Source: a virus. Taken from it: a stretch of DNA of 64,000 nt. The notes beneath the pieces are model-generated. The model worked only from the letters and a program-made list of their open reading frames with translations, was not told the origin of the DNA and made no database searches. Position numbers and translations under genes: made by a program. The number at the start of each line of letters is the position of its first letter. The stretch's first letter is position 1. This document shows, in pieces, positions 5,810 to 42,211 of the stretch. The stretch covers positions 1-64,000 of the IMG/VR virus record IMGVR_UViG_3300041409_000348. One strand, given 5' to 3'.

Positions 5810-6705
5810 GCGGATCGCGCGCCCTTCGTGGTCCGGGAGTGGCATCGGCCCTCGCACCATGAGGAGGTGCATTTATCGCAGTCCCGATTGCGGCAGCGGT
5901 CGGAATGTTTCCGTTCGCCATATCCGCAAGGGAAGAGGCCGATTAGGTCGTCGCGCTCTATCAGCGTCTCGACGTACCTTGGCAGGTTCTTCGGGCTGAA
6001 CTTGGTTTTGATAACCCGGATTGTTTCGTCCATCTCATCGGGCGTGGCGTCAGGGACGGCGGTGAGCATCGCCTCGCGTACGCGCGCGAGAGTCGTTCTT
6101 TTCTCATCAGAGTCTCTATCGTCTCCTATGGGGTCCGGGTTTCCGGGACCCTTCAGTCCGGGTTTCCGGGACCCTTCAGCCGTAGAACCCGGACCCTTCA
6201 GGTGGTGGACGTTGCTTGAAGGGTCCGTAGAACCCGGACGCTTCCCGGAGTTATCCACAGGTGAAGCGTCCGGGTTTCCGGGACCCTTCAAGTGGGCCAG
6301 CGTGGCAAACGGCGCGATGGCATAAACGGCGCGGACGCCATTCCGCCCGCGCTCAACCTGAATAAGCGCGCCCTTGTCGCGCAGGGCAGCGATAACCTCA
6401 TAGCGAGCGGTCCGGTTCAGCCGGAGCCGGCGAACAATGTCAGGGTTGTCCTCAATGCCATGCGGGCATTCCCTCGTTGAATCCATGGCAGCGTTCGCAA
6501 GCACGGACAGCGCGAAGCGCTCACGCCACGTGAGGCTTTCCGGGGCGCGATCCTCGGCCTCCCGGACAAGCTGCCAGCCCATCAGGCCACCTGGCCTGTA
6601 CAGCGCGCGCCACGGCGGGGCCTGGAGTGATTCCAGGCCCAGGTCATGACGCCGATAGCCACCTGCGGCTGTCCTTCCGCTCATATGAACCGGTCCCTGC
6701 CTCAC
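5806..6705 (-). CDS. Lambda O-like replication initiator carrying its own iterons
   Basis: The N-terminal half is a winged-helix initiator-like domain (SLTWRERFALSVLANAAMDSTR ... NPDIVRRLRLNRTARYEVIAALRDKGALIQVERG). The middle is low-complexity repeats (LKGPGNPD, KRPGSTD) written by tandem DNA iterons. The C-terminus ends in Cys/His clusters (CGYGERKHSDRCRNRDCDKC). This is the layout of lambda O, where the origin lies inside the gene. The start is uncertain: GTG 6705, ATG 6684, or ATG 6582, which has an AGGTGG Shine-Dalgarno. Promoter -10 TATAAC lies at 6728-6733. Confidence 0.75.
   Translation of the reverse strand: MRQGPVHMSGRTAAGGYRRHDLGLESLQAPPWRALYRPGGLMGWQLVREAEDRAPESLTWRERFALSVLANAAMDSTRECPHGIEDNPDIVRRLRLNRTARYEVIAALRDKGALIQVERGRNGVRAVYAIAPFATLAHLKGPGNPDASPVDNSGKRPGSTDPSSNVHHLKGPGSTAEGSRKPGLKGPGNPDPIGDDRDSDEKRTTLARVREAMLTAVPDATPDEMDETIRVIKTKFSPKNLPRYVETLIERDDLIGLFPCGYGERKHSDRCRNRDCDKCTSSWCEGRCHSRTTKGARSA
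6133..6290. repeat. Iteron array (putative origin 1)
   Basis: A 23-bp unit, GTCCGGGTTTCCGGGACCC plus TTCA, occurs exactly at 6133-6155, 6156-6178 (directly abutting) and 6268-6290. Degenerate copies lie at 6182-6200 and 6227-6244, and an inverted half-unit (TGAAGGGTCC) at 6217-6226. The array sits inside the initiator gene, as in lambdoid origins. Confidence 0.8.
6251..6259. promoter_or_regulatory. DnaA box (perfect TTATCCACA)
   Basis: The consensus DnaA box lies between iterons and is translated as VDN in the overlapping gene. It supports host DnaA assistance at this origin. Confidence 0.75.
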
Positions 6706-6787
6706 GTCGCGCTCATCTCTCCACTATGTTATACCCTAACGGAGAACGTAGCGTAAGATCACACCGGAGACCGGAGGGAAGGGCGCG
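6706..6787. promoter_or_regulatory. Divergent promoter region
   Basis: Between the initiator and the plus-strand HTH gene. It holds -10 TATAAC for the minus direction (6728-6733), a candidate -10 TAAGAT for the plus direction (6754-6759), and an imperfect dyad CTAACG/CGTAG around 6736-6751 that could be an operator for the HTH protein. Confidence 0.45.
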
Positions 6788-7054
6788 ATGGATATGCCGG
6801 AGGGCTGTGTCATCATGGATCTCATGAGCGAGGCAGCGAAGGCACGGACGGCGAAGGCATCGCGCAACTACACGCGGCTCAAGTCGCAGTTCGCGGACGC
6901 CCGGAAGGAACTGGCCGCCGCCATCGTCGCCGAGCGCATCGACGGCGAGAAGATCGAGGACATCACAGCCCGGGTGCCTGTCCGTCAGACGCAGGTGAAC
7001 CGCATCCTTGAGGCGGCCGGGCTGACGGAGAAGCGCAAGCGCGAGGCCGCCTGA
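6788..7054 (+). CDS. Small helix-turn-helix regulator
   Basis: 88 aa. The C-terminal half (IDGEKIEDITARVPVRQTQVNRILEAAGL) is an HTH resembling resolvase/Hin tails. It is the only plus-strand gene among the early minus-strand genes, divergent from the initiator and preceded by GGAGGGAAGG. Probably a repressor controlling replication. An internal ATG at 6815 is an alternative start. Confidence 0.6.
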   Translation: MDMPEGCVIMDLMSEAAKARTAKASRNYTRLKSQFADARKELAAAIVAERIDGEKIEDITARVPVRQTQVNRILEAAGLTEKRKREAA

Positions 7055-8292: not shown

Positions 8293-8390
8293 GCGGCCAC
8301 CGCCGGTTCCGTGCGGGCCAGCAGCGACCGCATAGCCTCGGGCGCCCGCAGCAGCAGCCGGATAGCCGCGGCACCCTGCTGCGGCATCAT
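8289..8390 (-). CDS. Candidate micro-ORF (33 aa)
   Basis: MMPQQGAAAIRLLLRAPEAM... ends TEPAVAA. Its ATG overlaps the HNH gene stop and its stop overlaps the next GTG, so the chain of coupled genes is unbroken. Amphipathic helix only; function unknown. Confidence 0.45.
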   Translation of the reverse strand: MMPQQGAAAIRLLLRAPEAMRSLLARTEPAVAA

Positions 8391-8983
8391 GCGGCATTCC
8401 TAAGCTCGCGGGCCCGCTTGGTCTGACGGTTCCGCTCAGCCCGGCAGATGTCGGAGCACGACTTCTGCTGCAGGAGGCCCCGGAAGACTGTCCCGCACAC
8501 GATGCATTCCTTTGATTCCGTGTGCTCCGCGTTGCGCCGGCTGATCAGCTCGCCCCTGCATGCCGGGCTGCATGTCTGCTGACGCAGACGCTTCGTCTTA
8601 TGGGGCGTGAACTGCGTCCCGCAGACGACGCAAACCTTGACTGTCGCGTGCCGGGTGTGCCTATGGCCGTGCTGTTCGGATGTGACCAGTTCGAGATTCT
8701 CGGGGCGATTGTCCAGCCGGTTGCGGTTCTTGTGGTGAACCTGCTCCCAGCGCTTGAGCCGGCGGCCTAGCGCCTGTTCCATGACGTAGCGATGCTCAAG
8801 GATCTTCCTGCCGTCAGGGGTTTTGATCTGGCGGTACCGGCCGACAAACTGCCCATCCGGCAGACGCCGGTTCAGGAGCAGCCCGCTGCATCGTTTGCTG
8901 CAGCAGCGTCGCGCCTCGTACTGCCAGTAAGCCTCAGTTGGGCGCTTCCCGTACTCGCCGCCGCACTGTTCGCAGATCTTCAT
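8387..8983 (-). CDS. HNH homing endonuclease with zinc fingers
   Basis: 198 aa from ATG 8983 (MKICEQCGGEYGKRP). Central HNH core: VHHKNRNRLDNRPENLELVT. It is flanked by four C-x2-C-type pairs (CEQCG, CVVCGTQF...C...C, CIVCGTVF...C...C). It is a free-standing phage homing endonuclease type. It abuts the 3' end of the C5 methyltransferase gene. Confidence 0.85.
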   Translation of the reverse strand: MKICEQCGGEYGKRPTEAYWQYEARRCCSKRCSGLLLNRRLPDGQFVGRYRQIKTPDGRKILEHRYVMEQALGRRLKRWEQVHHKNRNRLDNRPENLELVTSEQHGHRHTRHATVKVCVVCGTQFTPHKTKRLRQQTCSPACRGELISRRNAEHTESKECIVCGTVFRGLLQQKSCSDICRAERNRQTKRARELRNAA

Positions 8984-22348: not shown

Positions 22349-23179
22349 CTAAATCGCAGTTGGGGCGCAATTCCCCGTCATCCTTTCGCGGGTGATTGCC
22401 GACAGCAGGACCCCGAGCGGAGGCGGATCATCGCTCCGGGCCGGTGGTGGCGTCGCCCACGGGTCGGCGTCGGCGGGCGGCTTGGCAGGCGCTGGCGCGG
22501 CCCGGTACGGCGGGGGCGTGTTCGTGGGCACGAAGTTCTGCGGGTCTTCTTCCCGCCGGATCGCGGTGCGCACGAACACCAGCGGCTTGCGGGGCGGCGA
22601 CGAGGCGCGGCCGAGGATCTGGCGTGCGACCTGCGCGGCGTGGTCCCGGCTGACCCTGACCTGGGTTCGTTCTTCAATCTCAGAAATGATCATGTCGGTC
22701 ATGGAGCCTGAGTTATCCACAGGCGGGTCAGCCTCGCGCGCCCGCGCGGATCGATCTTTCGTTTTTGGGTCTTCCGTCTTTAGTTCTTTATCTGACGGGT
22801 TCCCGTCTGACGGCTTCCCGACCGACGGGAAGCCGTATGTCGTGGTGACCAGCGGCGATGCGCCATCCTCGCCGCTGGTCACGATCGCCTCATCGCTGAG
22901 AACCTGATCCCACACCCAGATCCCCCGCGGGCCCTTCCGCCGGTCGCGCCGGTAATAGCCACATTGCCCGAGCTCGCGCAGTGCGCCCCGGACCGCCTCG
23001 CGGCCGTCAGGCGCCTGGGACTCCAGCCACTTGGCCGTGAGGACGTGATCCGGCGGCAGGGAAAGGACGAACGCGAGGACGCCGCGGGCACGCCAGCTGA
23101 GGCGCTCATCCTGAAGCGCGGCGTTGGAGATTTGGACGAACTTGCCTTCGGCAGCGCGAACGCTGCGTATCGCGGTCAC
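22349..23179 (-). CDS. Second O-like replication initiator/HTH protein
   Basis: 276 aa from GTG 23179, with GGGAGG four bases upstream. The N-terminal winged helix FVQISNAALQDERLSWRARGVLAFVLSLP...EAVRGALRELGQCGYYRR is typical of phage/plasmid replication initiators and DnaD-like proteins. The middle is repeats (GFPSVGKPSDGNPSD) and VDNSG, encoded by iterons and a DnaA box. A C-terminal Pro-rich tail follows. It has the same architecture as the 5806 gene but a different sequence. Confidence 0.75.
   Translation of the reverse strand: MTAIRSVRAAEGKFVQISNAALQDERLSWRARGVLAFVLSLPPDHVLTAKWLESQAPDGREAVRGALRELGQCGYYRRDRRKGPRGIWVWDQVLSDEAIVTSGEDGASPLVTTTYGFPSVGKPSDGNPSDKELKTEDPKTKDRSARAREADPPVDNSGSMTDMIISEIEERTQVRVSRDHAAQVARQILGRASSPPRKPLVFVRTAIRREEDPQNFVPTNTPPPYRAAPAPAKPPADADPWATPPPARSDDPPPLGVLLSAITRERMTGNCAPTAI
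22713..22721. promoter_or_regulatory. DnaA box (perfect TTATCCACA)
   Basis: The consensus box inside the second initiator gene is translated as VDN, exactly as in the first origin. Confidence 0.75.
22756..22835. repeat. Iterons plus AT-rich stretch (putative origin 2)
   Basis: Three abutting 15-bp units: TCTGACGGGTTCCCG (22791-22805), TCTGACGGCTTCCCG (22806-22820) and ACCGACGGGAAGCCG (22821-22835). Immediately beside them is a T-rich tract (22756-22793) that stands out in this GC-rich DNA and could be the unwinding element. Confidence 0.7.
22845..22882. repeat. 14-bp perfect inverted repeat
   Basis: GTGACCAGCGGCGA (22845-22858) and TCGCCGCTGGTCAC (22869-22882) with a 10-bp spacer. One arm recurs exactly at 24559-24572. 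Next to the iterons of origin 2; may bind a replication or regulatory protein. Confidence 0.55.
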
Positions 23180-29949: not shown

Positions 29950-31008
29950 ATGGGAAAGCATTCAGACCTCAGTAACTGGCAGGTGAAGGCGGTCGTCACC
30001 GTCGTCGCCATTGTCGCGGCCGGTCTCGCCGTCTACTCCGCCGCGGCCTCCTACGAAACCGTGTCCCACCTGGCGGCCACCTACGGCGTGCCGCTGGCCC
30101 GCTGGACGCCGATCGGCCTCGACGGCGGGCTCTTCGGCGCGATCATCATCAACATCGGGCTCATCTGGCTGAAGAAGCCGGTGTGGTGGTTCGGGATGGT
30201 GGCGCGGTTCTTCGCCATCGCGGTGATCGCCGCGAACGGTGCCGCCGGCTGGCCCCGCCCCATCGGCGTCGGCCTCCGCGTCGCCGCCCCGGTGCTGTTC
30301 GTCATCATCATGGAAGCCGCGCAATACGTCCTGCTGTACCGGACGGATGCGGCCGAGGCGGAAAGGCAGCGGAAGCGGGACGAGCGCATTCCATTCGCCC
30401 GCTGGACTCTCGCGCCAATTCAGACGTTCGCTATCTGGCGGCGGAAAAAGCTCTGGACGGACAGTAATCTCCCGCAGTCCGTAATTGACGTTGAGCTTTC
30501 CTTTATCCGCCTCGCCGATTTCTACGGCACCGATTGGCGCGACCAGGCCGACCCCGACTTGGTGTGGATGGTGGAGTCCGGCGTGAACATGGACGAGGTG
30601 CTGGACCGGGTGCGGAAGCTCACCACCGTCAAGGCGGTAACGCGGCGGCAGGGGAGCGGCGGTAACACTCAGGTCGCGGCGGCAGTAACGCCAGAGCCCG
30701 CGCTCCCCGTAACGGCCCCGGCTGCCGGGGGAGCGGTGCCAGTAACGCCGCCGCCCGTTACGCCGGAAACGGACGCCGTGGGGGAGGGGCTCCGGAAGCG
30801 CACAGAGGGGGAGTGGCTCACGGAGGTCCGCAACCTGTACGCCGACCAGGGCGACGCCCTGAGTGTCCGCAAGCTCATGCCGCAGCTGAAGCTCCTCGGC
30901 GGCGGCAGCGGGATCGCCATCGCCACGGCGACGGCGATGCTGCGTCAGGTCAAGGCGGAAGCCAGGGCCGCGGCGGGGGTCAGTGACGACGCCGGGGCGG
31001 TGGGCTGA
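29950..31008 (+). CDS. DUF2637 four-helix membrane protein with embedded GTAACG sites
   Basis: 352 aa. The N-terminal half has four helices typical of DUF2637 (VKAVVTVVAIVAAGLAVYSAA, GLDGGLFGAIIINIGLIW, WFGMVARFFAIAVIAANG, APVLFVIIMEAAQYVLL). This family sits beside tra/rep genes of actinobacterial plasmids and integrative elements. The C-terminal half is cytosolic and holds a Pro-Val-Thr-rich linker whose VT pairs are spelled GTAACG or GTTACG. A HTH-like end (VRKLMPQLKLLGGGSGIAIATATAML) follows. Confidence 0.8.
   Translation: MGKHSDLSNWQVKAVVTVVAIVAAGLAVYSAAASYETVSHLAATYGVPLARWTPIGLDGGLFGAIIINIGLIWLKKPVWWFGMVARFFAIAVIAANGAAGWPRPIGVGLRVAAPVLFVIIMEAAQYVLLYRTDAAEAERQRKRDERIPFARWTLAPIQTFAIWRRKKLWTDSNLPQSVIDVELSFIRLADFYGTDWRDQADPDLVWMVESGVNMDEVLDRVRKLTTVKAVTRRQGSGGNTQVAAAVTPEPALPVTAPAAGGAVPVTPPPVTPETDAVGEGLRKRTEGEWLTEVRNLYADQGDALSVRKLMPQLKLLGGGSGIAIATATAMLRQVKAEARAAAGVSDDAGAVG
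30637..30762. repeat. GTAACG/CGTTAC site cluster A
   Basis: GTAACG at 30637, 30685, 30709 and 30742, CGTTAC at 30756, and GTAACA at 30662, all inside the DUF2637 gene. They use GTA/GTT valine codons that are otherwise avoided here. Confidence 0.75.
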
Positions 31009-31260
31009 GATGGCCTTCCCGTCCCGGTGCCTAACCGGCCGTCCGTGGGGGTGCCTGCACGGCATCCACGGCACCCCCCGCACGGCCCGGAATTGGGGGG
31101 AAATTCCCGCGATTCCCCGCCGGCCCCGTGCGGCGGCCCGCCAGATGGCCCCTCCCCCGGGGAGCGGTGCCCCTTCCGGAAGAGGGGTCCGGCCTCGCCC
31201 GACGGGCGCGGACCCGACGGGCGCGCGTGATTTTACTCCTTCCCGCATACGGAGCGTGCC
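31009..31260. other. Gap with weak ORF and repeats
   Basis: A frame from ATG 31011 to 31267 (MAFPSRCLTGRPWGCLHG...) is Pro/Arg/Gly-rich and unconvincing. The stretch has the short inverted block GGAATTGGGGGGAAATTCCC near 31090 and the direct repeat CCCGACGGGCGCG near 31198 and 31212. Possibly regulatory; nothing firm. Confidence 0.3.
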
Positions 31261-31566
31261 GTGCTGACCACCCCGCAGTCCGTGTCGAACGGCCGCAAGT
31301 GGCACATCGACCACATCAACAACGCCCCCACGGCGGAGATCGCGCTGCAGCGGGCCTTCGAGTGGGCCAGGGCGGAACTGCGGGACTGCCAGCTCCGCCG
31401 CCCCCAGGACGCCGAGGGGTTCCGGTGGCAGATCATCCACGAACTCGCGGACCGCACCCACCAGATCCACGGCAACCACCCGGGCGACGAGTACCGGTAC
31501 AACCCGCCGAAGCTGCCCGGCGGCGGCTGGGTGGCCAAGCCCGGTAGCAACGTACGGCACCCCTGA
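31261..31566 (+). CDS. Hypothetical protein (101 aa)
   Basis: GTG start (VLTTPQSVSNGRKWHIDHIN). Mixed alpha/beta, ends PKLPGGGWVAKPGSN. Lies between the two genes that carry GTAACG arrays. No family recognised. Confidence 0.6.
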   Translation: MLTTPQSVSNGRKWHIDHINNAPTAEIALQRAFEWARAELRDCQLRRPQDAEGFRWQIIHELADRTHQIHGNHPGDEYRYNPPKLPGGGWVAKPGSNVRHP

Positions 31567-31592
31567 GACGACCAACCCGAGACGAGAGAGTC

Positions 31593-32168
31593 ATGGCCCA
31601 CAGCAACGGCAACCGCGTTACGCGCACCCTGTTCGCGCTGCCCGCCGTTACGGACACCGTTCCCCGTAACGCTGGCCAGGAGCCCGTTACGCAGCCCGTT
31701 ACTGGCCCCGTAACGCTTCCCCTGACGCCGCTCAGCGTTACGGGTAACACCGGGGAGCCCGTTACGGGCCCTGCCGCCAGTAACGCTGTCGTCGTCCCGC
31801 TGTCGCCCGCCGAGCACGCCCATCTCGCCATCCGGCACTGGGCGGAACTCGCCGCGAACGGGGCCGGGCAGTTGTGGCTTCACCCGGACCGGCTCGGTCA
31901 TTCCCTCTACCACGGAAAGCCGGGATCACTGGCCGAGCATCGCGCCTACATCAAGTCGCGGGGATGGGTGCCGCCGGACCTGGACGGCAAAGCCGCCAAG
32001 TTCATCGCGGGTACCGGGGTCGTCTTTTACGCGATTACGGGGATTCTCCAGATCCCGCTTCTGATTCTTTATGCGGCCCTGGATAGGGCGCTCCGTGTCG
32101 CGGGGCTTATCGCGGCCGTCCTCGTTTTCGTGTTCGCTGTCGTCCCGCACATTCACATTCACCCCTGA
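31593..32168 (+). CDS. Membrane protein with embedded GTAACG array
   Basis: 191 aa. Residues 8-65 are a Val/Thr/Pro-rich segment (PVTQPVTGPVTLPLTPLSVT) produced by the DNA repeat array. A soluble middle (AEHAHLAIRHWAELAANGAG) and two C-terminal helices (FIAGTGVVFYAITGILQIPLLILYAAL; VAGLIAAVLVFVFAVV) follow. Typical of actinobacterial plasmid-spread membrane proteins. Confidence 0.65.
   Translation: MAHSNGNRVTRTLFALPAVTDTVPRNAGQEPVTQPVTGPVTLPLTPLSVTGNTGEPVTGPAASNAVVVPLSPAEHAHLAIRHWAELAANGAGQLWLHPDRLGHSLYHGKPGSLAEHRAYIKSRGWVPPDLDGKAAKFIAGTGVVFYAITGILQIPLLILYAALDRALRVAGLIAAVLVFVFAVVPHIHIHP
31616..31785. repeat. GTAACG/CGTTAC site cluster B
   Basis: CGTTAC at 31616, 31646, 31685, 31697, 31736 and 31760; GTAACG at 31666, 31710 and 31780; GTAACA at 31744. 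Nine exact 6-mers in 170 bp, in both orientations, within coding DNA. Confidence 0.8.
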
Positions 32169-32179
32169 AAGGAAATCCA

Positions 32180-32632
32180 GTGAACTACGACCCGCTTTTC
32201 CTCGGCGCCGTGTTCGGCACGCTCGCCGTGGTCGGGCTCGTGCGCCACAAGGCCCCCCGCGCCACCGCGATCCTCGCCGCGCTCGCCGTCCTGTGCCTCC
32301 TCGCCGGCGTCCCCTCGATGCTGGCCGCGCTCGGGCATCCGATCGGCAGCGGCCCGATCCTGCTGGGCATCATCATCGGCGCGGTCGGCTTCACGGCGTT
32401 CTTCTACTTCGACGTGATCCGCGGTGAGCACAAGACCCCGCTGGGCCTGAAGGCCATCGGCGGCGGTGGCCAGGGTGGCGGCAAGTCCAACCATCACGTC
32501 CGCCCGCTGGTGGTCACCGTGGGCCTGACCGTGTTCGGCCTGCTGATCGCGATGAACTGGAGCGCGGTCGTCTCGGGTACCGGCGGCGGTTTCACGCAGA
32601 CCCCCGCGATCATCGCCCACTCGGGGGCCTGA
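32180..32632 (+). CDS. Four-helix membrane protein (150 aa)
   Basis: PLFLGAVFGTLAVVGLV, ATAILAALAVLCLLAGVPSM, GPILLGIIIGAVGFTAFFYF and PLVVTVGLTVFGLLIAM are four helices. A Gly-rich cytosolic loop (GGGGQGGGKSNHH) separates the last two. Stops four bases before the translocase, so probably partners with it. Confidence 0.7.
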   Translation: MNYDPLFLGAVFGTLAVVGLVRHKAPRATAILAALAVLCLLAGVPSMLAALGHPIGSGPILLGIIIGAVGFTAFFYFDVIRGEHKTPLGLKAIGGGGQGGGKSNHHVRPLVVTVGLTVFGLLIAMNWSAVVSGTGGGFTQTPAIIAHSGA

Positions 32633-32635
32633 CCG

Positions 32636-34726
32636 ATGGGCCGCGTCGAACGCAGCTGGAGCGGGGACGGCCTCGTCCAGGGAGAGGTCGTCCCCGACGG
32701 CCTGTTCCCCGGCGAGGCCCCCGCCGAACCGGCGCGGCCTGAGCCCCTGTCCCGCAAGCCGGGCATGGTCCGCCTGATGTGGCGGCACCACGGCCCGTTC
32801 ATCCGCCCGTTCCTCCTGCTCGGCGTGCTCTGGCTGTACGCCGCCGTCGTGCACCGCGCCCCGGCGCTCGAGGTGCGGCTGCTGCTGACCGCGGTCCCGG
32901 GTGCCGTGGCTACGTGGCGGGTGTTCCGCCGCACCCGTAAGGGCACCCCGGCCCGGCTGCGTGCCATCGTGTCCCTGGCCGGCGGGGTGCTGTGGCTGCT
33001 GCTCGCGGGTATCGTCACCGGGCCCGCCGCGTGGATGATCGTGCTGCTGCTCGCGGGTGGCCTGCTGGCTGGCGGGCACGCCCACGAAGCCCGCCGCGAC
33101 GCCCCCGTCCCGCCCCCGGCCGACGAGGCGGACGAGACGGGCTGGGAGCCGGTGACGGAACCCGAACCCGTCCACGTCCCGCAGGCCGCGCCTCAGGGCG
33201 GCCCGGTGCGGCAGGGAGCCCTCGGTGAAGACGACTACACCCCGCCCGGCCTCGCCGACTTCACCCCCGCACCCCCGGTCGCCCCGGAACGGCTCGCCGC
33301 CGCCAGCAAAACCATCACCGCCGCACTGTCGGACGTGCTCGAGCAGTTCAACGTGGACGCCCAGGTGACTGGCTCCATGCGCGGCCCGCAGGTCACCCGG
33401 TATGAGATCGAGCTGGGCCCGGCGGTGAAGGTGGAGCGGGTCACGGCGCTGTCGAAGAACATCGCCTACGCGGCGAAGACCCCGGACGTGCGGATCATTT
33501 CCCCGATCCCCGGGAAGTCCGCGATCGGCGTGGAGATCCCGAACGCGGTCAAGGAGATCGTGTCCCTCGGCGATGTCCTGAAGTCACCGGCGGCCATGGC
33601 CGACCAGCATCCGATGATCGTGGGCCTGGGGAAGGACGTTGAGGGCCGGACGGTGCTGGCGAACCTGACGAAAATGCCGCACCTGCTGATCGCGGGGGCG
33701 ACCGGCTCGGGTAAGAGCGTCTGCATCAACGGCCTGATCACGTCGGTCCTGACCCGGGCGACTCCTGAGGACGTCCGCATGATCCTCATCGACCCGAAGC
33801 GGGTCGAGCTGTCGATCTATGAGGGCATCCCGCATCTGCTGTCCCCGATCATCACCGAGCCGAAGAAGGCAGCCGAAGCCCTGGAATGGGTGGTGGCCGA
33901 GATGGAACGCCGTTACGAAGACCTCGCCGCGTCCGGGTTCCGGCACGTCGACGACTTCAACCGGGCGGTGAGGGCCGGGAAGCTGACCGCCCCGCCCGGC
34001 AGCGAGCGGGTCTACCGGCCGTACCCGTACCTGCTGATCATCGTGGACGAGCTCGCCGACCTGATGATGGTCGCCCCCCGGGACGTGGAAGATTCCGTGG
34101 TCCGCATCACCCAGCTCGCCCGTGCCGCCGGCGTCCACCTGGCCCTCGCCACCCAGCGGCCCAGCGTGGATGTGGTGACGGGCCTGATCAAGGCCAACGT
34201 CCCGTCCCGGCTCGCGTTCGCCACCTCCAGCCTCACCGATTCCCGCGTGATCCTCGACCAGCCCGGCGCCGAGAAGCTCATCGGCGAGGGTGACGCCCTG
34301 TTTTCCCCGATGGGCTCGAAGACCCCGATGCGGCTCCAGAACGCTTTCGTGACGGAGAAGGAAATCCGGGCCATCGTGGCGCACTGCAAGAAGCAGAAGC
34401 GCCCCGAGTACCGCGACGACCTGCTGACTGCTGTCGCACCGGACCGGAACCGGGACACCGACACCGAGATCGGCGACGACCTCGACCTGCTCGTCCAGGC
34501 GACGGAACTGGTGGTGTCCACGCAGTTCGGGTCCACGTCGATGCTGCAGCGCAAACTCCGCGTCGGGTTCGCGAAGGCCGGCCGGCTGATGGACCTGATG
34601 GAGAGCCGGAACATCGTCGGCCCGTCGGAGGGGTCAAAGGCCCGTGACGTGCTCGTCAAGACGGACGAGCTCACCGAAACCCTGGCCAGCCTCAAGGCGG
34701 CCAGCAGCACCGAGGAGAACCGATGA
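32636..34726 (+). CDS. FtsK/SpoIIIE-type DNA translocase with gamma domain
   Basis: 696 aa. Four N-terminal membrane helices (residues about 50-145), then the alpha domain ([20 protein letters not shown]). Walker A is [11 protein letters not shown] (about 350), [12 protein letters not shown] is present, and Walker B is [13 protein letters not shown] (about 465). The C-terminal winged-helix gamma domain reads [20 protein letters not shown] then [13 protein letters not shown]. Gamma domains read short DNA sequences to orient or load the motor. Close to cellular FtsK rather than to short TraB forms. Likely pumps DNA in transfer or segregation. Confidence 0.9.
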
Positions 34727-35139
34727 CCGTTCTGGATCACCGGCGCAGCGCAGCCGACGAGTTTGAGGGGGCACCTATGCCGATCCCGCAGCAGGGACTG
34801 CCGACCGTGCCGGGCACCTCAGCGATCCCGTGGTGGACCGGTGTCCCCGGCCTCGACCCGGACTGCCGCTACGCCGAATGGGTGTACGCCGCCGAGTGCG
34901 CCGCTATCGCCTGCGGGATCCACGTCCTCGGCGCCGACGCGGGCCGCGCGGACTGGCTGCGCGGGCAGATCAAGGGGCCGGTCAGGAAATGGGCGCAGTG
35001 GCTCACCGAGGGCGGCCAGGCGCAGGCACCGAAGCGGACGCTGGTCCTGCGGATGCTGTGCGAGCGCTCCACCGTGATCGGCCCCGACCACATCCTGACC
35101 GTCGCGCAGAGCATCTGCGCCGCCGGGACACTGAGGTGA
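34723..35139 (+). CDS. Hypothetical protein (138 aa)
   Basis: ATGA overlap with the translocase. [20 protein letters not shown] and [20 protein letters not shown] suggest a compact helical soluble protein. Position suggests an accessory of the DNA pump; no family recognised. Confidence 0.6.
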
Positions 35140-40942: not shown

Positions 40943-42211
40943 GTGGCCATCACACCATCTGGGGTTCGCGAGATCCCCATAGCCACCCTGACCCGCTTCC
41001 CCGGCAACGCCCGGCGCGGCAACGTCGCCGAGATCCGTGCGAGTGTCCGCCGTCTCGGCCAGTACCGCACCATCGTGGTCCGCGACACCGGTTCGGATCT
41101 GGTGATCCTCGCGGGCAACCACACCGCTGACGCGCTGGCCGCTGAAGGGCATGAGAACGCCCGGTGTGAGGTCATCACCTGCACCGACGACGAAGCCCGC
41201 CGCGTCAACCTGACGGACAACCGGCTCGCGGAGCTGCCGGGACCGGACGGGGAACGGTACGACGACGAGGCCCTCGTGGAGCTGCTGTCGTACCTGGACG
41301 GCGACTATGAGGGCACCGGGTGGACCGAAGAGGACGTGTCCGCGCTCATCGAGCCACCCGAGGACACGCCGGGCGGCAACGGCGACCCGGACGACGCACC
41401 GGAACCACCAGCCGAGCCGGTCAGCGCGTTCGGTGACCTCTGGCTGCTCGGGCCGCACCGGCTGCTCATAGGCGACGCGACCAACCCGGATCACCTGGCG
41501 CTGGCAACCGAAGGACTCGGCACGCCGGGCATCGTCTACACCGACCCGCCGTACGGCATAGACATCGTGAGCAGCGCCGGAAAGGTGGGCGCATCCATCG
41601 GCTACCCCGTCGGCGGTGCCAAGAACGGCGGTCAAGGCAGCAAGGGCACCGTCCGCACGACCAGTTATCTGCCCGTCGCTGGGGACGACAGCACCGACGC
41701 TGCGGTGGACGCCTTCCGGCTGCTGTATGCGGAGTACCCGGACGCCATGCATATCTGGTGGGGCGGCAACCACTATGCGGCCTCGGCCGGCCTGCCGGAC
41801 TCGTCGTGCTGGCTTGTCTGGGACAAGGACACTAACGGCAACTTCGCGGACGCTGAGCTTGCCTGGACGAGCCATCCCGGCGCGGTACGGCTGCTGCGGC
41901 ACATGTGGAACGGGATGCTCCGCGCCTCCGAACGCGGCAAGCGTGTCCACCCGACCCAGAAGCCGGTAGCACTCGCCGAGTGGGCGTTCGGTGTCATCGA
42001 CCCCAAGGATGAGCGGAGCGTCGTCCTCGACGTGTTCGCGGGCTCAGGATCAACGCTCCTCGCCGCTCACCGGACCAAACGCACGGCGGCGCTGATCGAG
42101 ATGGAACCCGCATACGGGGACGTCATCGCCGGACGCTGGGAAGCCTTCACCGGCATCAAACCGGAGCGTGTCCTGCCCGACGGCACCACCGAACCTGTCT
42201 CCTTCACCTGA
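40943..42211 (+). CDS. ParB-domain/adenine- or cytosine-N4 methyltransferase fusion
   Basis: 422 aa from GTG 40943. Residues 10-95 are a ParB/Srx-type domain (REIPIATLTRFPGNARRGNV...VILAGNHTADAL...VNLTDNRLAEL). A DNA methyltransferase follows, with IVYTDPPYGID (motif IV), WWGGNHYA, RVHPTQKPV and LDVFAGSGSTLLAAH (motif I). Fusions of this type occur next to terminase genes and may mark or protect DNA for packaging. Confidence 0.85.
   Translation: MAITPSGVREIPIATLTRFPGNARRGNVAEIRASVRRLGQYRTIVVRDTGSDLVILAGNHTADALAAEGHENARCEVITCTDDEARRVNLTDNRLAELPGPDGERYDDEALVELLSYLDGDYEGTGWTEEDVSALIEPPEDTPGGNGDPDDAPEPPAEPVSAFGDLWLLGPHRLLIGDATNPDHLALATEGLGTPGIVYTDPPYGIDIVSSAGKVGASIGYPVGGAKNGGQGSKGTVRTTSYLPVAGDDSTDAAVDAFRLLYAEYPDAMHIWWGGNHYAASAGLPDSSCWLVWDKDTNGNFADAELAWTSHPGAVRLLRHMWNGMLRASERGKRVHPTQKPVALAEWAFGVIDPKDERSVVLDVFAGSGSTLLAAHRTKRTAALIEMEPAYGDVIAGRWEAFTGIKPERVLPDGTTEPVSFT

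Follow-up and report, generated by a model that had tools for sequence, protein, structure and literature searches.

Arrays of a short DNA word in linker codons near an FtsK-type translocase gene of an actinobacterial phage: putative sites of a membrane-anchored DNA-binding protein

The element and its array module

The DNA described here belongs to IMG/VR record IMGVR_UViG_3300041409_000348 (G000; 103,563 bp), the first 64,000 nucleotides of which form the window. L-numbers denote the loci to which it was compared. Judged by gene content (large terminase, portal, tape measure, single-strand annealing protein and exonuclease), G000 is a temperate actinobacterial tailed phage. A tyrosine integrase is encoded at 97787-98752 of the record, and given this gene, an extrachromosomal stage of the element is assumed. 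A replication-initiator-like protein (PHROGs) is encoded at 22349-23179, separately from the arrays. Non-coding DNA at 6133-6290 contains 23-bp direct repeats (GTCCGGGTTTCCGGGACCCTTCA, three exact copies) and a related 20-bp repeat. These repeats are the second-best k-mer cluster of the record, and could be an origin, an integration-arm or a regulatory region. At 40943-42211, just before the terminase genes, a ParB-like N-terminal domain is fused to a DNA methyltransferase. Inspection of translations at the right end of the record (about 89-103 kb, L006) revealed bacterial-looking genes, DUF397-like and globin-like. Neither Rfam matches nor tRNAs were found in the window.

The arrays lie in a plus-strand block of genes for small, mostly hydrophobic proteins, with a full FtsK gene at its end. 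The first array gene (29950..31008) encodes a DUF2637 protein (Pfam PF10935, E=1.3e-16; 61.4 bits against a gathering score of 22.8), which we propose as the reader of the arrays. In the translation, a multi-TM DUF2637 region (aa 17-172) is followed by a low-complexity linker, which contains array 1, and by a C-terminal HTH-like domain (30787..31005). AF2 predicts three helices in this domain (7-24, 27-37 and 45-62; mean pLDDT 85.6); the model of the full-length protein is poor (pLDDT 60). The domain has no Pfam match, and a Foldseek search gave no significant match, with PadR, Hsmar1 and PAX6 DNA-binding domains among the matches with E>3. The C-termini of the readers of other elements match HTH models weakly, and a PDB profile search with YGR-type domains returned marginal matches only. 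On the basis of the AF2 model, the identity to the L096 counterpart and the Mantel tests described below, the domain is the predicted specificity domain.

Two genes with orthologues in L095, L096, L097 and L109 follow, a small conserved ORF between the array genes (31261..31566) and the gene of the partner protein (31593..32168). The partner consists of an N-terminal linker with array 2, a conserved middle part and a C-terminal hydrophobic segment. Next come a small hydrophobic protein, predicted to be membrane-bound and conserved in the module (32180..32632), and the FtsK-type DNA translocase (32636..34726; PF17854, PF01580, PF09397), with an N-terminal hydrophobic region and alpha, motor and gamma domains (gamma at 34484..34657). 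The first-pass annotation had placed a full FtsK less than 1 kb downstream, and the gene indeed starts 851 bp past array 2 and encodes all three domains. Directly 3' of it lies an ORF (34777..35139) that is conserved in L095, L097, L104, L109, L120 and L134.

All fourteen exact GTAACG/CGTTAC 6-mers that had been reported in two clusters are present, inside two genes. Array 1 (30637..30761) comprises five of them (starting at 30637, 30685, 30709, 30742 and 30756) in linker codons of the multi-TM/HTH-like gene. Array 2 (31616..31785) comprises nine (31616, 31646, 31666, 31685, 31697, 31710, 31736, 31760 and 31780) within the codons for the partner protein's N-terminal linker, and its sites are in both orientations. 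A GTAACA near-site in each array (at 30662 and 31744) raises the count to 16 GTWAC, six in array 1 and ten in array 2. When all 5-8-mers were scanned de novo for clusters over the entire 103,563-bp record, CGTTAC at 31616 was the top clustered k-mer (log10 score of 11, corrected for multiple tests). An element-wide count found 20 further GTAACG in 102 kb, none of them clustered, and nowhere else in the 103,563-bp record does a 170-bp window hold more than two copies.

The arrays are far beyond chance. With the protein fixed and synonymous codons redrawn, 0.6 and 0.7 GTWAC are expected in the two array genes, compared to 7 and 10 observed (one of the seven, at 29972, falls outside array 1), and none of 5,000 draws matched these counts. 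In the FtsK gene alongside, the GTWAC count is at expectation. The supposition that the sites encode Val-Thr pairs is correct for 12 of the 16 array sites, but not for the other four, which are read in another frame as CGT-AAC (Arg-Asn), AGT-AAC (Ser-Asn) and, twice, GGT-AAC (Gly-Asn). The third frame, which would require a TAA stop or the rare TTA codon, is unused at the array sites. As two frames and both orientations are used, selection acts on the DNA and not on a Val-Thr repeat, which frames, strands and the synonymous null together rule out. The selected object is the DNA itself, as had been suspected in the annotation.

Relatives with the same anatomy and different words

The informative relatives were obtained with FtsK as the query, which led to 64 viral loci; a direct viral scan with P0001 and P0002 as queries found no relatives. 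An array in a multi-TM/linker/HTH-like gene is present in about 20 viral contigs, in Streptomyces phage VWB and in five plasmids, some of these relatives being fragments. Several of the same anatomy have no PF10935 match. The arrays occupy linker codons of the multi-TM gene, often also those of a neighbouring gene, and are usually near a DNA-pump gene. The words are 5-8 bp long and occur in about 6-69 copies, and most elements carry their own. In the closest relatives (L095, L096, L097 and L109) the gene order is kept and the arrays occupy the same two places, though often with other words. The arrays are thus conserved as a feature.

Within this closest group, the word is GTAAC[AG] in L096, GGTACC-like in L095 (RGTACY) and L109, and CGACRCTG in L097. 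The more distant L104 has two arrays of GGGTAAC, which is also a GTAAC word. Elsewhere the words are GGAAC(T) in L101, CGGAAC in L105 and L108, CGGAACC in L128, CGAGACC in L100, GCGACA in L116, TGACA in L122, GGTGGC in L102, GGGTAC in L107 and L114, CGGACCCC in L110, GGCGGCAA in L113 and GTGGNCCA in L098. L112 has 69 copies of CCGAACACC, spread over all three frames. The plasmids carry GCGGACAA (L165), GWGAAC (L162), GGCGGAACT (L227), GGCGGAAA (L229) and CCGTACGG (L230), and the cultured Streptomyces phage VWB carries CGGGTGCG.

Words from the de novo scans are nearly always inside the multi-TM/linker/HTH-like gene, and in several elements one word is common to two different genes. When synonymous codons were redrawn for each element (500 draws; all but the first L096 gene and the second L104 gene), mostly 0/500 draws reached the observed count of a word that had itself been picked after scanning. 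The weakest results, with 1 to 7 of 500 draws reaching the count, concern genes of L095, L098, L107 and L109. In L160, L229 and L122 the word occupies one frame and one strand, and could partly reflect protein repeats.

A strong array is absent from L115, L117 and most chromosomal copies despite a similar multi-TM gene, and chromosomal DUF2637 genes, like some plasmid copies, are mostly without arrays. The 80 FtsK-homologue loci of GTDB genomes, chromosomal FtsKs included, contain no GTAAC cluster. Lysine-rich AAGAAG clusters, found near chromosomal FtsK loci, were left out of account as they are probably coding repeats.

Three of the elements deserve separate mention. In VWB (L232, 16326-18918), a DUF2637 protein is encoded by gp24, and of the 60 CGGGTGC sites in the genome, 31 fall within gp24-gp25; the start of gp25 appears to be annotated in the wrong frame. 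In L107, the word of the element is arrayed in the DUF2637-like gene and again in the FtsK gene, within linker codons (8364-8617). L230 is plasmid pSROS01 of Streptosporangium roseum, with the CCGTACGG array in its DUF2637 gene. Directly 5' of its FtsK gene, non-coding DNA (6762-6968) contains eight CCGCACA in both orientations, which resemble the pJV1 clt repeat CCGCACA[CG][CG] as given in PMC3583192.

Covariation of the word with the reader

Word similarity is correlated with the similarity of the C-terminal HTH-like domains (Mantel r=0.33, p=5e-5; n=27 hand-cut domains, a small sample), also after removal of two close relatives (r=0.28, p=2.5e-4). When the last 75 aa were cut out automatically, which may take in linker residues, the answer was the same as for the hand-cut domains (r=0.375, p=1e-4). 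In contrast, the correlation of the word with FtsK motor similarity is not significant (r=0.17, p=0.095), and that with the TM domain is r=0.12 (p=0.05); with the TM domain partialled out, the C-terminal effect is r=0.365 (p=1e-4). Individual cases illustrate this correlational evidence. VWB and L107/L114 have an IGQxxAQ-like helix in common, with the words CGGGTGC and CGGGTAC, respectively. L113 and L229 have xRTIRxV in common, with GGCGGCAA and GGCGGAAA, and L101, L105, L108 and L227 combine Y[GA]R helices with GGAAC. L097 is an exception, with a YGR helix and yet a different word.

The strongest evidence that reader and arrays form one cassette is a natural swap. The FtsK proteins of L095 and L096 are 91% identical over 569 aa (L096 ends before gamma), and on both sides of the module most nucleotide windows are 80-99% identical. 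In the reader gene, however, nucleotide identity drops to 38-55%; the C-terminal domains are only 35% identical, and the words are RGTACY and GTAAC. Reader gene, both arrays and word have thus been replaced jointly, and array 2 has changed with the reader though it is located in a different gene. The comparison of G000 with L096 is the converse case. Here, the C-terminal domains are 74% identical and the word is the same, whereas the TM domains cannot be aligned, and the FtsK proteins (74%) are less alike than those of the L095/L096 pair. That the word changes together with the C-terminal end of the reader suggests a private 'address label' between the DNA of an element and its own membrane machinery.

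Possible roles of the arrays

We consider it probable, with odds of slightly below 60%, that the arrays are sites of a membrane-anchored DNA-binding protein from their own gene cluster, which would anchor the DNA for segregation or spread beside FtsK. In this model, a multi-pass membrane protein (of DUF2637 type in G000) would bind the arrays with its HTH-like domain, which would be cytoplasmic and attached by a flexible linker. With many low-affinity sites, the element's own DNA could collect a large number of readers in the membrane, by which it would be tethered there, close to the FtsK pump and to the small membrane proteins encoded beside it. The most likely purpose would be to keep or move the excised element through septa, in segregation, intra-mycelial spread or transfer. 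As the short word of each element is paired with a matching domain, reader and arrays would make up a self-recognition cassette. The words may have diversified because elements that live in one host would otherwise be rivals for the same sites (incompatibility). In VWB, reader and arrays occur without an FtsK match, so that FtsK is not obligatory. The core function may be to hold DNA at the membrane, with FtsK as an optional or host-supplied partner.

The first-pass annotation raised the possibility of direct reading of the sites by the FtsK gamma domain, in the manner of TraB at the 8-bp clt repeats, so that the pump would be loaded on the element. The FtsK gene does lie 851 bp downstream, and clt repeats are also short, multiple and variable between plasmids (PMC3583192), but the gamma helix is the same or nearly so across the words GTAAC, GGTACC, CGACRCTG and CGGACCCC. 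Moreover, the words do not track FtsK significantly, the 91%-identical FtsKs, one of them ending before gamma, stand beside different words, and the VWB arrays occur without an FtsK match. In view of the near-invariant helix and the Mantel control, we reject the gamma domain as the reader; sequence comparison makes this role very unlikely. Of the proposed clt-like loading site, the clustering of short repeats near a motor gene is retained, and reading by gamma is dropped. It is extremely improbable that low-complexity repeats at the protein level generated the k-mers and that the DNA has no function. The sites do lie within linkers, and PQPT in L160 and the first cluster of L104 look like tandem peptide repeats, but this explanation conflicts with the use of two frames and both orientations, with the synonymous null, with the 69 copies of L112 in all three frames, and with words common to two different genes.

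It is unlikely that the arrays are operators or immunity sites, where an HTH-like protein would repress its own module and superinfection immunity would diversify specificity, as for the stoperators of cluster A mycobacteriophages. Words and readers are element-specific and the sites are within the reader's own operon, as would then be expected, but they are clustered deep in coding sequence, neither at promoters nor dispersed over the genome, and a sigma-70 scan nearby found no promoter-like site. Furthermore, the reader is a membrane protein, and plasmids carry the same system. The iteron reading is also less likely. A replication origin, with the multi-TM/HTH-like protein as a membrane-bound initiator and iterons inside its own gene, would explain sites in the binder's linker codons and co-evolving specificity, the lambda O/ori pattern. 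We nevertheless doubt it, because the record has a separate initiator-like protein and, at 6133-6290, a non-coding repeat cluster apart from the arrays. An initiator that is a multi-pass membrane protein and has no helicase loader would be unusual, and no clear local GC-skew switch was found. A centromere for a separate, soluble partition protein, such as the ParB-like/methyltransferase fusion, is improbable. The fusion product has a PHROGs ParB-like match (E=1e-34), and L104, likewise with GTAAC, has a 75%-identical copy. Against this, the fusion resembles a phage DNA methyltransferase, and a search for a ParA ATPase (AAA_31, PF13614) gave no match in G000 and a match in one of the ten records searched. 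The copy in L100 (41% identical, other word CGAGACC) is neutral in this respect. The parS-like site of the annotation is thus kept in modified form, with a membrane-anchored reader and no ParA found in the record.

The proposed membrane-anchored reader can be compared to several known systems. SpdA2 of the Streptomyces plasmid pIJ101 binds a palindrome, sps, in the gene that encodes it, and when sps is removed by synonymous changes, segregational stability is affected, but not transfer (PMC4170104). The parallel is an element-encoded binder, here predicted, with sites in its own coding sequence in actinobacterial mobile elements; in G000, sites are found in the gene for a protein whose C-terminus is predicted to be HTH-like. 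SpdA2 is small (135 aa), and sps is a 12-bp palindrome (CGTCACGTGACG) in 2-3 copies, conserved between plasmids (PMC4170104), whereas a multi-pass membrane reader, sites of 5-8 bp, about 6-69 copies and element-specific words are found here. G000 has 16 GTWAC in place of such a conserved palindrome, and the words of its relatives vary. SpdB2 of pSVH1, cited in PMC4170104, is a DNA-binding protein of the membrane and an interaction partner of the FtsK-like TraB, and in these respects resembles the predicted reader; its DNA binding is described as non-specific. In the TraB/clt-TRS systems (pSVH1, pIJ101, pJV1, pWTY27), clusters of short repeats also occur near an FtsK-family pump, vary between plasmids, and belong to mycelial hosts (PMC3583192). 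There, TraB/TraA themselves bind the varied clt repeats (PMC3583192), TraB through its own C-terminal winged helix, whereas here the gamma helix varies little or not at all, and the word tracks a protein other than the pump.

ParABS/parS systems are similar in having self-recognition arrays with type-specific binders, but differ in that no ParA is found in the G000 record, the reader is proposed to be membrane-anchored, and the sites are in coding linkers. In phage lambda, the O gene carries its iterons in the part that codes for the linker of O, and specificity and sites co-vary between relatives. Sites in linker codons of the proposed binder's own gene are a likeness, but the initiator O is soluble and has four iterons, whereas we find a membrane protein beside FtsK and, often, a second array in another gene. 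A membrane-anchored reader, many short sites and element-specific words do not occur together in any of the systems compared. Tentatively, this may be an undescribed class of actinobacterial phage and plasmid systems, in which a membrane reader with a swappable domain and words in linker codons would act like a code of identity or incompatibility that differs between elements, and pass the element's own DNA to an FtsK that is otherwise non-specific. If binding and incompatibility were proven, the systems would form a class of their own.

To our knowledge, DUF2637 proteins have no known function, and the name is barely mentioned in the literature that we searched. The analysis suggests a testable job for them, together with a likely DNA word for about 25 elements, among them the cultured phage VWB. 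It would also account for the way in which an FtsK whose gamma domain is host-like might act on the DNA of one phage, since a co-evolving membrane reader would supply the specificity. The series of paired domains and words is ready for the study of DNA recognition, and it indicates that protein linkers can act as space for DNA sites.
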